64,000 bases of DNA, from contig NZ_JACHLZ010000001.1 of the NCBI RefSeq assembly GCF_014204755.1, positions 248,001 to 312,000 on the forward strand, in the 5' to 3' direction. Under the pieces are notes generated by a model. The model was not told the DNA's origin and ran no database searches. It worked only from the letters and a program-made list of their open reading frames with translations. Below, in pieces: positions 425 to 4,587 of this stretch; position 1 is the stretch's first letter, and each line of letters opens with the position of its first letter. The position numbers and the translations under genes are program-made. This DNA comes from Brachybacterium aquaticum (lineage in GTDB: Bacteria > Actinomycetota > Actinomycetes > Actinomycetales > Dermabacteraceae).

Positions 425-3400
425 GTGACCACCACGAGCGAGACCGCACAGGACGGACTGGACCTGCCCGGCATCACCGCCGACGTGCGGGAGACGGGCG
501 CGGCGACCGATCCCGACCATCCGCACCCCGGGCAGTGGCGCCTGAACCATGTGCAGGTCTCCAACTGGGGCACCTTCCACGGCACCCACGACCTGGCGAT
601 CTCGTCGAAGGGCTTCTTCCTCACCGGCGGGCCCGGCACCGGCAAGTCCACGCTCCTGGATGCGATCAGCGCCCTGCTCACCCCGCCGCGCACCCTGCAG
701 TTCAACGCCGCCGCGTCCGACGCCGGCCCGAACCGCTCCAAGTACCGCCGCACCGTGGCCAGCTACGTGCGCGGCGCCTGGGCCATGCACTACGACCAGG
801 CCACCGGTGAGTTCAGCCAGGAGGTGCTGCGCGAGAAGACCACCCTGTCGGTGCTCACCCTGCGCTACGGCGACGGCATGGGCGGCACCGTCCAACTCTC
901 GCGCCTGCTGCTGCTCCACGCCGGCCACTCCGCGGACAGCGACGTCAAGAGCCTCTACGTCATCGCGCGCAAGCCCCTGGACGTCACCGACCTGCGCCAG
1001 TTCGTCTCCACCCAGATCGAGGGCAAGGCGCTCGAGGCCGCCCACCCCGGCACCGAGACCTTCCGCCAGTTCCGGGAGTACCGCGCCGCCTTCTGCCAGA
1101 TCCTCGGGATCCCGGACGAGAAGGCGCTGGGCCTGCTGCACAAGATCCAGTCCGCCAAGGAGCTCGGTGACGTCAACGCCCTCCTGCGCGACTACATGCT
1201 CGACCAGCCGCGCACCTTCGAGCTGGCCGACCAGGCCCTCGCCAACTTCCACAACCTCTCCGAGGTGTACGAGGCGCTGGTGACCGCCCGCGAGCAGCGC
1301 GACCTGCTGCGCGGCCTGCGCACCAACCACGAGGACTGGTCCGCGATGCGCGAGCGCGGCGGGGAGCTCGTGGACCGCAGGGCCGACATCGACGTGTTCG
1401 CCGCCCAGCACCTGGTGCGCCTGCTCGGGGACGAGACCGGGCGCCTCCAGCTCGAGCGCGACTCCCTCACCGCCCAGCAGCGCCGCCTCACCCAGGACGT
1501 GGCCGAGGCCCGCGCCGACCTCGCCCAGCTCAAGGAGCAGCGCCGCCGTGCCGGCGGCGGCGAGATCGACGACTGGAAGCAGCAGATCGCCGGCCTCGAG
1601 GTCGAGCGGGAGCGGCGCCGCGAGCGCGGCACCGAGTTCGCCGCCCAGCTGGCCACCGTCGAGCTGCGCACCCCGGCGGGGGAGGACATGTTCCTGGCCC
1701 TGCAGCGCGAGGTCGCGCAGCTGCGCGAGTCGCTCGAGCAGGAGGAGAAGGGTGCCGACGCCGCCCGCTGGGAGGCCGAGGCCGCCGTGCGCGAGCTCGG
1801 CGCGGCCCTCCAGCGCACCCGCGAGGAGCTCGCCTCCCTCACCTCCCGCGCCTCCAACCTCCACTCCGAGGACGTGGCCCTGCGCGACCACATCGCCGCC
1901 GAGGTGGGCATCGCTCCCACCGAGCTGCCCTTCGCCGCGGAGCTGCTGCAGGTCCGCACCGGCGAGGAGGAGTGGACCGCCGCGGCCGAGCAGGCGCTGC
2001 GGGGCCTCGCCCGCTCGATCCTGGTGCCCGACCGCGTCTACCGCGAGGTCGCCGCCGTCATCGACCGCACCAAGCTGCGCCGCCGCATCTCCTACAACCG
2101 GGTCAACACCGACCTGCGCCGCCCGGCGAAGAACATCGACCCCCGCTCCCTCGCCGCGAAGCTCGACGTCAAGGACGGCGAGTTCCACGTGTGGCTGTCC
2201 CACGAGATCGCCGCCCGCATGGACTACACCTGCGCGGAGAGCCTCGAGGAGTTCACCCGTCTGAACCGGGCGGTGCTGCGCTCCGGCCAGATCAAGCACT
2301 CCTCCACCCGGCACGAGAAGAACGCCGACCGCCAGATCAACGACCGTTCCCAGTGGGTGCTCGGCTTCGACAACCGCGCCAAGCGTGCCGTGTTCGAGCA
2401 GGAGCGCACCCGCGCCGAGCAGGCCCTGTTCGAGGCGCAGGCGAAGCGCAAGGACGTCGAGACCGAGCGGGAGCGGCGCCGCGAACGGCTCTACGCCCTG
2501 CAGTCCATCAGCTCTGTCACCTGGGACGACATCGACGCCGCCTCCGTCGCACGGCGCGTGGCGAACCTGCGCGACATGGTCCGCGCCGCCGAGGACGGCT
2601 CCGCCGCGCTCACCGAGCTCGCCCGCCAGATCGACGACGTCGAGGCGTCCATCGCCGCCAGCGACGAGGAGCTGCTCGAGGTGGTGCGCAGCGCCGGCAA
2701 GATCGCCGAGCAGGCCGAGCGCGCCGACGAGCGCCTGGCCGAGGCGAAGGAGCGCATCGAGGGCTCGAGCCTCGACCCCGCGGTGGAGCAGGAGCTCGCC
2801 GAGCGCTTCGCCGCGATCGCGCCGACGCTCGTGCTGTCCACCATCGACCAGGTCACCAAGGACGCCTCGGCGACCCTGGACGCCGAGCTGATGGACCTCA
2901 CCCGCCGCACCTCCCGCGCCGAGGAGGACATGCGCACCGCCATGCGCGAGTTCTCCCGCCGCTGGCCCGCCCAGGCCGGGGACACCGCCCCCACCCTCGA
3001 GGGGGCCGAGGACTACCTCGCGATCCTCCAGCGGATCGAGGAGGAGAAGCTGCCCGAGGTCGAGGACCGCTTCTTCGAGTTCTTCACCGGCAACACCCTC
3101 GGCGACGTGCAGGCCCTCGCCACCGCGATCGCCCGCGAGCCCGCCGAGATCCGCAAGCGCCTCCAGCGCATCAACGCCCTGCTCGCCCAGGTCGAGTTCC
3201 ACTCCGGCCGCTACCTGCAGCTGTCCATGCGCCCCGTGCACCTCGCGGCGCTGGACGAGTTCAAGCGGGCGCTCGAGGAGGCGGTCGCGGACACCGCCCT
3301 GAACGACATCTCCCGCGACCGCGACCTCGCCGAGGAGCGGTTCCTCTCCCTGCGCCACCTCATGGACCTCATCGGCGCCGCCCGCACCCGCGACGACCAG

Positions 3401-3832
3401 GTCTCCCGCGTGATCCTGGACGTGCGACGCCACGTCCACTTCCACGCCGAGGAGGTCGACGCGAGCGGCACCGTGGTCCACGCCCACGAGTCCGGCGGCC
3501 CGCTCTCGGGCGGCCAGAACGAGCGCCTGGCCACCTTCTGCCTCGCCGCCGCGCTGCGCTACCAGCTGGCCGGCACCGGCCAGGAGGTGCCCCGATACGC
3601 GCCGATCATCATCGACGAGGCGTTCTCCAAGGGCGCGGGCAAGTTCATCACCGCCGCCATGGAGTCCTTCCGCCACTTCGGCTTCCAGGTCATCCTCGCC
3701 AACCCCGGCAAGAACCCGCAGGCCCTGGCCCCGTTCATCGGCGGCGTGGGCGTGGTCTCCATCCGCCAGGACCGCTACTCCTCCGTCGCCCCGGTCGAGT
3801 TCGTGCCGGTCGAAGAGGGTTCAGAGGGGTGA
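425..3832 (+). CDS. SMC/MukB-like ATPase of the JetC (COG4913) type, apparently orphan
   Basis: 1135 residues from a GTG with no clear Shine-Dalgarno. The N-terminal ATPase half has Walker A GGPGTGKS at 68-75 after a NWGTF strand typical of this family. Two long charged coiled-coil arms (roughly 290-480 and 680-950) flank a globular middle at about 500-680. The C-terminal half carries the ABC signature LSGGQ at about 1027 and Walker B IIIDEA with D1064/E1065. Size and layout match JetC, the SMC subunit of Wadjet plasmid-defence complexes, and MksB-like proteins. The usual JetA, JetB and JetD neighbours are absent: upstream is a divergent gene, downstream a small unknown gene. The active-site motifs look intact, so it is not an obvious pseudogene. 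It could be an orphan SMC-like factor, a remnant of Wadjet, or a subunit whose partners lie elsewhere. Confidence 0.85.
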   Translation: MTTTSETAQDGLDLPGITADVRETGAATDPDHPHPGQWRLNHVQVSNWGTFHGTHDLAISSKGFFLTGGPGTGKSTLLDAISALLTPPRTLQFNAAASDAGPNRSKYRRTVASYVRGAWAMHYDQATGEFSQEVLREKTTLSVLTLRYGDGMGGTVQLSRLLLLHAGHSADSDVKSLYVIARKPLDVTDLRQFVSTQIEGKALEAAHPGTETFRQFREYRAAFCQILGIPDEKALGLLHKIQSAKELGDVNALLRDYMLDQPRTFELADQALANFHNLSEVYEALVTAREQRDLLRGLRTNHEDWSAMRERGGELVDRRADIDVFAAQHLVRLLGDETGRLQLERDSLTAQQRRLTQDVAEARADLAQLKEQRRRAGGGEIDDWKQQIAGLEVERERRRERGTEFAAQLATVELRTPAGEDMFLALQREVAQLRESLEQEEKGADAARWEAEAAVRELGAALQRTREELASLTSRASNLHSEDVALRDHIAAEVGIAPTELPFAAELLQVRTGEEEWTAAAEQALRGLARSILVPDRVYREVAAVIDRTKLRRRISYNRVNTDLRRPAKNIDPRSLAAKLDVKDGEFHVWLSHEIAARMDYTCAESLEEFTRLNRAVLRSGQIKHSSTRHEKNADRQINDRSQWVLGFDNRAKRAVFEQERTRAEQALFEAQAKRKDVETERERRRERLYALQSISSVTWDDIDAASVARRVANLRDMVRAAEDGSAALTELARQIDDVEASIAASDEELLEVVRSAGKIAEQAERADERLAEAKERIEGSSLDPAVEQELAERFAAIAPTLVLSTIDQVTKDASATLDAELMDLTRRTSRAEEDMRTAMREFSRRWPAQAGDTAPTLEGAEDYLAILQRIEEEKLPEVEDRFFEFFTGNTLGDVQALATAIAREPAEIRKRLQRINALLAQVEFHSGRYLQLSMRPVHLAALDEFKRALEEAVADTALNDISRDRDLAEERFLSLRHLMDLIGAARTRDDQVSRVILDVRRHVHFHAEEVDASGTVVHAHESGGPLSGGQNERLATFCLAAALRYQLAGTGQEVPRYAPIIIDEAFSKGAGKFITAAMESFRHFGFQVILANPGKNPQALAPFIGGVGVVSIRQDRYSSVAPVEFVPVEEGSEG

Positions 3833-4077: not shown

Positions 4078-4587
4078 ATGTCAGCGCTTCCCCGCGAGCC
4101 CGAGGACCGCATCCCCGACCAGGACACCACCCACGGGCGAATCCGCTCCCTGCTCGCCTCGGTCACCGGTGCGCTCCTGGAGGAGCAGCCGGGACTGCTC
4201 TCCTTCCACGATCACCGCCCTGAGCGGGACCGCTCCTCGGGAGAGTCCTGGCGGGGTCTGCAGACCCTCTGCCATGTCAGCGCCCTCCTCGCCTCCGATG
4301 CCGCGCCGGATCCGCGCCCCGGCGCCGCGCACGCCCTGCTCCGCGCGGTCGAGGCGCGCGCGCTGGCCGCGGGCATGCACCGCCGCGCCGTCGAGGAGGG
4401 GCACGGCGGGATCACCGTCTCCTGGCGCGACGACCTCGGCGACCTGCTCGAGGTCGTGGTCGGCGTGCGGGTCGCGGTCCGGGCCATCAGCGCCCCCTTC
4501 CTGCCGGGCTCCCTGCACCCCGTGACCACGACCAGCCCGGTCACCGCGCTCAGTCCGCTGACGCCGCCGCCCCGCCGGGTGCGCTGA
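4078..4587 (+). CDS. Hypothetical protein, 169 aa
   Basis: The start chosen is the ATG at 4078, preceded by GGAAGAGG at about 9 bp; upstream in-frame codons lack a ribosome site. The protein is acidic at the N-terminus, has an alanine-rich helical middle, a WRDDLGDLLEVVVGVRVAV segment that may be a beta hairpin, and a Thr/Pro-rich tail. There is no signal peptide or clear membrane helix, and I do not recognise the family. The last 38 bp overlap the end of the convergent maltokinase gene. A possible promoter (TACCCT at 3933-3938) would give a leader of about 130 nt. Confidence 0.6.
   Translation: MSALPREPEDRIPDQDTTHGRIRSLLASVTGALLEEQPGLLSFHDHRPERDRSSGESWRGLQTLCHVSALLASDAAPDPRPGAAHALLRAVEARALAAGMHRRAVEEGHGGITVSWRDDLGDLLEVVVGVRVAVRAISAPFLPGSLHPVTTTSPVTALSPLTPPPRRVR

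Follow-up and report, generated by a model that had tools for sequence, protein, structure and literature searches.

What does a Wadjet-type ATPase do when its gene stands in a chromosome with no other Wadjet gene beside it? The question is raised by a stretch of 64,000 nucleotides from Brachybacterium aquaticum (here the window; contig NZ_JACHLZ010000001.1, genome bases 248001-312000, window base 1 being genome base 248001), which carries jetC (mksB), a gene for an SMC-type ATPase. A preliminary description of the window called this gene an orphan without Wadjet partners and left three options: a stand-alone SMC-like system, a Wadjet whose other subunits had moved, or a repurposed chromosome factor. 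The last is best supported because SMC and ScpB are also missing from the genome; the first is contradicted by the JetA and JetB that the genome encodes. A type I Wadjet has probably lost its nuclease, JetD, and then taken over from SMC-ScpAB in the family Dermabacteraceae.

The gene in question occupies 425..3832 on the plus strand (start at genome base 248425) and is an open frame of 1135 amino acids with a GTG start. Judged by sequence, its product is a type I JetC (MksB) ATPase of full length. The PADLOC profile JetC1 (PDLC00518) scores 1176 bits and matches residues 29-1130 on profile positions 7-1103 of 1112. Solved JetC chains in the PDB match the protein as well, 8dk2_C at E 3.7e-75. 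Pfam recognises only general SMC-like ends (AAA_29, SbcC_Walker_B), while the canonical SMC equivalog TIGR02168 gives 28.8 bits where its cut-off is 567. No MukB-named family matches JetC up to E 1 in NCBIfam or Pfam, a scan that covered neither JetA nor JetB; the genome was not searched for MukBEF. The near full-length JetC1 match bears out the JetC/MksB identity first proposed, and the three ATPase motifs claimed with it are all present. Walker A, GGPGTGKST, lies at residues 68-76 (626..652, plus strand); the ABC signature LSGGQ, within LSGGQNER, at residues 1027-1031 (3503..3517, plus strand); and Walker B with the catalytic glutamate, IIIDE within IIIDEAFSK, at residues 1061-1065 (3605..3619, plus strand). 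Walker A, the signature and residues D1064 and E1065 are invariant in an alignment of 8 rows. Among 72 JetC frames from family loci (two overlapping sets, with some genomes counted twice), Walker A is found in 71, and the signature and Walker B in 70 each. The misses fall in loci L155 and L159, where the match stops at the locus end, and in L162, where JetC is split over two frames (L numbers denote fetched loci and G numbers relative genomes). This JetC is the sole match in the genome, a single contig of 3,449,336 bases.

Both structural partners are encoded in the same genome. The jetA gene lies at genome 224097-225674 (start codon chosen by the analyst) and jetB at genome 228246-228917, each outside the window and on the same strand as jetC. 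They were invisible in the window because both lie upstream of genome base 248001. JetA has a DUF3375 match at 224172-225650 (454.9 bits, ~23 kb upstream of jetC) and JetB a DUF4194 match at 228354-228824 (142.5 bits, ~20 kb upstream); in PADLOC the two products score 502 bits with JetA1 and 189 bits with JetB1. JetA also matches a solved JetA at 4.8e-21, and no solved JetB is matched by the sequence of JetB.

Intact JetD is not found. For DUF3322 (PF11795) nothing in the genome exceeds the cut-off, the only match being one of 15.1 bits with an internal stop. JetD_C (PF09983) gives one fragment of 74 residues at 2651664 (31 bits in Pfam), in a frame at genome 2651628-2651849 (L009:10628-10849). 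Since it spans about one third of the JetD_C profile, this frame is rejected as an intact JetD. It matches the JetD of second Wadjets in sister species at 57-65% over 43-48 residues and is probably a remnant. The search of the rest of the genome proposed in the preliminary description thus recovers DUF3375 and DUF4194, with no DUF3322 over the cut-off and only the JetD_C fragment. The dispersed Wadjet held there to speak against an orphan exists in part: jetA and jetB do lie elsewhere, and jetD is absent bar the fragment. What the genome contains is JetABC without JetD, in separate places, i.e. the MksBEF gene set (MksB/JetC, MksE/JetB and MksF/JetA) without MksG/JetD.

The chromosome also lacks its usual SMC gene. 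Of the genome's 102 SMC_N candidates, every one of which was scored, two exceed the cut-off (70.9 and 64.4 bits). These are frames of 426 and 923 amino acids and are read as RecF and RecN, the RecN reading agreeing with its neighbours. On this model the SMC of a sister genome, G040, reaches 242 bits, compared with 70.9 for the best match here; a true SMC would therefore have stood out. In G040 the gene order is ndk-smc-ftsY-amtB-glnD. In B. aquaticum ndk is followed by ~520 bp and then ftsY, amtB and glnD, and the ndk-ftsY stretch holds no SMC remnant at E 0.01. SMC is really gone from this genome. With regard to the other subunits of SMC-ScpAB, no ScpB is found and ScpA was not searched for; the stretches near recN, pyrG and thrS did not reveal the slot of scpAB. 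The chromosome record apparently does not begin at dnaA.

The same combination extends across the family. A survey of 198 related genomes includes 47 of Dermabacteraceae (G000-G046), which appear to cover Brachybacterium, Dermabacter, Helcobacillus and two more genera. JetC and JetA are each found in 100 of the 198 genomes. Within the family JetA is found in 47/47, and the core JetC, i.e. the ortholog of the gene described here, in 46/47 at 68-94% identity (100% in the genome itself); it is in pieces in G003, G006 and G022. The 47th genome, G040, has a JetC at 27% identity only. SMC has a match in 148 of the 198 genomes and exceeds the cut-off in 132; ScpB is found in 145. In the family G040 is the only genome with ScpB or with SMC over the cut-off, a weak SMC match in G009 (3.2e-12) lying below it. 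The same 46 family genomes therefore have core JetC, no ScpB match and no SMC over the cut-off. Over the whole survey, 51 genomes are without ScpB and without SMC over the cut-off, and 49 of these carry Jet genes, two being without; JetC is present in 51 of the remaining 147.

JetD_C is found in 41 of the 198 genomes. In the family it occurs in G040, in five genomes (G008, G009, G022, G026 and G032) where JetD stands beside a second JetC of ~33% identity, as a remnant in G014 (L192:5205-5690) and as the fragment described above. JetD is unmatched in 39 of the 46 family genomes with core JetC. Neither G014 nor B. aquaticum has a second JetC match; the JetD_C remnants of both are probably leftovers of decayed second Wadjets.

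The arrangement of the genes differs between genera while their order does not. Where one contig carries both genes (36 genomes), jetA lies upstream of jetC on the same strand in 36/36, at a distance of 0.7-77 kb; the other 10 of the 46 genomes, with jetA and jetC on different contigs, were left out of this count. The three genes form a tight operon in one genus and extend over as much as 77 kb in others. G039 and G043 are the sole cases among the 36 in which jetA, jetB and jetC are contiguous, and the three are adjacent in loci L098 and L099. In G042, G045, G046, G038 and G041 jetA lies 3-5 kb from jetC; jetB remains close to jetC except in G041, where it is ~1.2 kb away. All three genes are separate in the Brachybacterium loci examined (e.g. 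G031, G019 and G034). In B. aquaticum the single operon expected of a Wadjet is replaced by a distance of ~23 kb from jetA to jetC. JetB is found in every examined family locus that spans its place; no search for it was made over all relatives. The outer neighbours are constant where the fetched stretch reaches them, with tgt upstream and genes for a CshA-repeat protein and a GH20 protein downstream. Such dispersal with fixed order and strand suits resident genes better than a defence operon that spreads horizontally. A virus-borne element was also considered and rejected: 109 viral stretches matched the peptide patterns and none encodes a relative.

According to rough gene calls, the interval between jetA and jetB in B. 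aquaticum holds a methyltransferase-like DNA-binding protein (domain by Pfam) and a charged protein. The interval between jetB and jetC holds ABC-transport, glycan and IspD-like genes (IspD and GlfT2 by Pfam). Variable transport, glycan and IspD-like genes are seen across this stretch, at 229-248 kb here and in the matching Brachybacterium loci. To judge from these contents, the jetB-jetC stretch in Brachybacterium is an insertion-prone island at a fixed site.

Phylogeny places the family's JetABC among Wadjets. In a tree of 63 JetC rows, the 22 core Dermabacteraceae rows form one clade (SH-aLRT 100); the surrounding clade (support 97) adds 19 other rows, all from JetD-bearing loci. A mixture-model tree of 32 JetC rows again unites its 7 core rows (support 100), and the 19 core rows of the JetA tree form one clade with support 100, the nearest sister group of which is weakly supported (24). 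The JetC and JetA trees have midpoint roots and flagged long branches. Both proteins thus appear to form a single family clade among JetD-bearing Wadjets.

JetABC evolve slowly. Between B. aquaticum and the other four genera, identity is 68-75% for JetC, 67-73% for JetA and 70-83% for JetB. The tRNA enzyme Tgt comes close to these values (76-87%), and two neighbouring proteins lie below them, the maltokinase-like one at 36-44% and the CshA-repeat one at 31-36%. Eight pairwise estimates of dN/dS range from 0.12 to 0.39, crude values at this GC content. A further trait concerns the N-terminus of JetB, where JetD is described as contacting an IFDR motif (PMC10586767). An L[WF]xxDxG-like motif is found there in 17/26 JetBs of JetD-bearing loci and in 13/15 of JetD-less loci outside the family, the two misses being misread frames; it is found in 0/19 core Dermabacteraceae JetBs, two of which have an unreadable N-terminus. 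This difference is not used as proof because JetD-less relatives keep the motif, some JetD-bearing loci lack it, and its identity with the IFDR motif is not shown.

These observations suggest the following history. JetABC (JetA, the kleisin, being MksF; JetB, the KITE protein, MksE; and JetC, MksB) would descend from a type I Wadjet, a system directed against plasmids. JetD, the nuclease, would have been lost, JetABC would have entered the core genome of Dermabacteraceae, and SMC-ScpAB would have been lost. The operon would later have come apart at a fixed chromosomal place. JetA, JetB and JetC would assemble and act on the chromosome, now doing the work of SMC-ScpAB: ATP-driven loading onto the chromosome, loop extrusion, compaction of DNA and help in the separation of sister chromosomes. 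Since JetD is absent, this complex would extrude without cutting. The evidence also leans, if less firmly, towards a second, independent Wadjet-derived replacement of SMC-ScpAB. The family's only SMC-class condensin would then be a nuclease-less JetABC, and living species would preserve the steps: JetD lost first, SMC-ScpAB missing next, and finally the opening of the operon, in which jetA would have parted from jetB before jetB parted from jetC.

Two other functions for a complete JetABC can be considered, both of which are unlikely. JetABC may silence, compact or exclude plasmid or phage DNA without cutting it, the chromosome running without any SMC-class condensin. This is compatible with the tolerance of smc loss reported in Corynebacterium glutamicum (PMC11898615) and with two genomes of the order that have neither SMC and ScpB nor a Jet match. 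It leaves unexplained why core JetC and the absence of SMC and ScpB coincide in the same 46/47 family genomes, and why the sole genome without core JetC keeps both. Alternatively, a working Wadjet defence may persist in dispersed form, in which JetABC senses circular plasmids and JetD or an unrelated nuclease encoded elsewhere cuts them. JetA, JetB and JetC are indeed intact and of Wadjet type, and a JetD_C fragment exists in the genome. However, this fragment has 74 residues and about one third of the JetD_C profile, JetD is unmatched in the 39 genomes noted above, and in five more it lies beside a second JetABC. The gene after jetC in the compact operon of L098 encodes a CshA-repeat surface protein, not a nuclease. 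Second Wadjets are patchy in the same genus, which sets them apart from this JetC with its 46/47 occupancy at 68-94% identity.

A stand-alone JetC, acting alone or with neighbouring genes, is very improbable. In the window no Wadjet partner is seen beside jetC, and the statement that both immediate neighbours are unrelated to Wadjet holds: the upstream neighbour is a GlfT2-like glycosyltransferase (Pfam; 488 of 549 amino acids scanned) and the downstream neighbour a maltokinase-like protein. An orphan JetC is nevertheless rejected, and with it the original label, because jetA and jetB are found upstream on the same strand and are contiguous with jetC in two family genomes. Two genes had been put forward as new partners, namely the divergent glycosyltransferase gene and a small gene at window 4078-4587. 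Matches to the latter (38-69% identity) are confined to Brachybacterium among the loci examined, which have limited flanks, and the loci from the other four genera yield none; its product has no clear Pfam, NCBIfam or PADLOC family. The divergent gene is matched in only some Brachybacterium loci, again with limited flanks. Given this patchy or Brachybacterium-only presence, the suggested check for co-occurrence in relatives gives no support to either gene as a partner of JetC, and both are rejected.

Several points weigh against a takeover of the chromosome by JetABC. The argument draws on presence, absence and conservation, and the family amounts to roughly one evolutionary event. Absence covers SMC and ScpB only; ScpA, ParB and MukBEF were not searched for, and in the relatives the SMC search scored only the top three first-look candidates per genome. 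Two genomes of the same order, G096 and G149, have no SMC, ScpB, JetC or JetA match; SMC loss therefore does not require JetABC. Such bacteria perhaps have no SMC-class condensin at all, or one that escapes recognition. In C. glutamicum, deletion of smc is reported to give no growth phenotype (PMC11898615), and MksBEFG is reported to have no role in chromosome organisation (PMC7083940).

Loss of JetD is itself a poor guide. Outside the family, 22 of 53 JetC-positive genomes are without a JetD match and 21 of these 22 have an SMC match; JetD loss alone is therefore no sign of replacement. In 15 of the 22 the locus was inspected with a home-made JetD profile and JetD was not seen nearby. The profile has three seeds, one in the wrong frame, and still found the JetDs of L109-L112, L114, L131 and L132. 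Loci L120-L130 and L135-L137 hold JetABC without a JetD match; other families of the order often have this set together with SMC, and in L120 a leuS-like gene precedes it. A further point against is provided by three genomes of another family of the order (G081, G136 and G162), which are without ScpB and without SMC over the cut-off and carry a divergent JetABC. Two of the three have JetD, and G136 has a weak SMC match (2.7e-11). JetABC in their loci (L114, L131 and L113, respectively) is divergent and fast-evolving. This lineage is a possible parallel case.

Two family genomes have apparently damaged core genes, which also counts against a takeover. In G032 the core jetA is interrupted (L134:3309-7415) by a transposase gene whose product has an integrase-core domain and a Mu-type transposase C-terminal domain. 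In G022 (Brachybacterium sp. Z12) the core jetC is in two overlapping frames (L133, L162); this is possibly a sequencing error, the assembly being only 85% complete. Both genomes also carry a second JetABC with JetD. Such core genes beside a second Wadjet fit redundancy, but may also mean dispensability.

The family's JetABC can be compared with several known systems. It resembles type I Wadjet (JetABCD; also EptABCD or MksBEFG) in that the PADLOC profiles make JetA, JetB and JetC full members, and the JetC and JetA trees appear to place the Dermabacteraceae copies among JetD-bearing Wadjets. Wadjet JetABC is described as a loop-extruding motor that senses DNA shape and activates JetD on circular DNA (PMC10586767, PMC10512200). 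Unlike such a Wadjet, the set described here has no JetD, mostly dispersed genes, and a family-wide rather than patchy presence in hosts without SMC and ScpB. MksBEF of Pseudomonas aeruginosa is likewise a JetD-less condensin, probably derived from JetABCD according to PMC10586767; the likeness is drawn without direct sequence comparison. A chromosome role is reported for that complex (PMC7485682), while in Dermabacteraceae such a role is suggested by the absence of SMC and ScpB. P. aeruginosa has SMC-ScpAB alongside its MksBEF; with neither SMC nor ScpB present here, JetABC is the only SMC-type condensin found.

MukBEF of enterobacteria is also a complex of the Muk/Mks/Wadjet superfamily, and offers a precedent, being described as having apparently replaced Smc-ScpAB (PMC10586767). 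In contrast to MukBEF, the present case lies in Actinomycetota, and since its nearest relatives can still be recognised as JetD-bearing Wadjets, the transition would be visible. The JetD-less JetABC of other families (e.g. L120, L121 and L125) shares the order jetA-jetB-jetC without a JetD match. It differs in its place in the JetC tree, in hosts that keep SMC in 21/22 cases and in a JetB that retains the N-terminal L[WF]xxDxG-like motif which the Dermabacteraceae copy lacks. The origin of Wadjet is treated as unresolved in PMC10586767, where descent of MukBEF and MksBEF from Wadjet is called tempting speculation. In the open-access literature, no paper was found on SMC-less Dermabacteraceae, nor any that joins Brachybacterium with SMC and condensin, or Dermabacter with Wadjet.

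If the history proposed here is true, a defence machine can become an essential chromosome organiser. For the relation between anti-plasmid SMC complexes and chromosome condensins, Dermabacteraceae would provide a recent example whose close relatives still bear JetD. Strains in which the core JetABC is accompanied by a complete second Wadjet would make it testable what renders a plasmid-cutting extruder safe on the chromosome. The genomes of this family would also test the need for an SMC-class condensin once SMC-ScpAB is gone.

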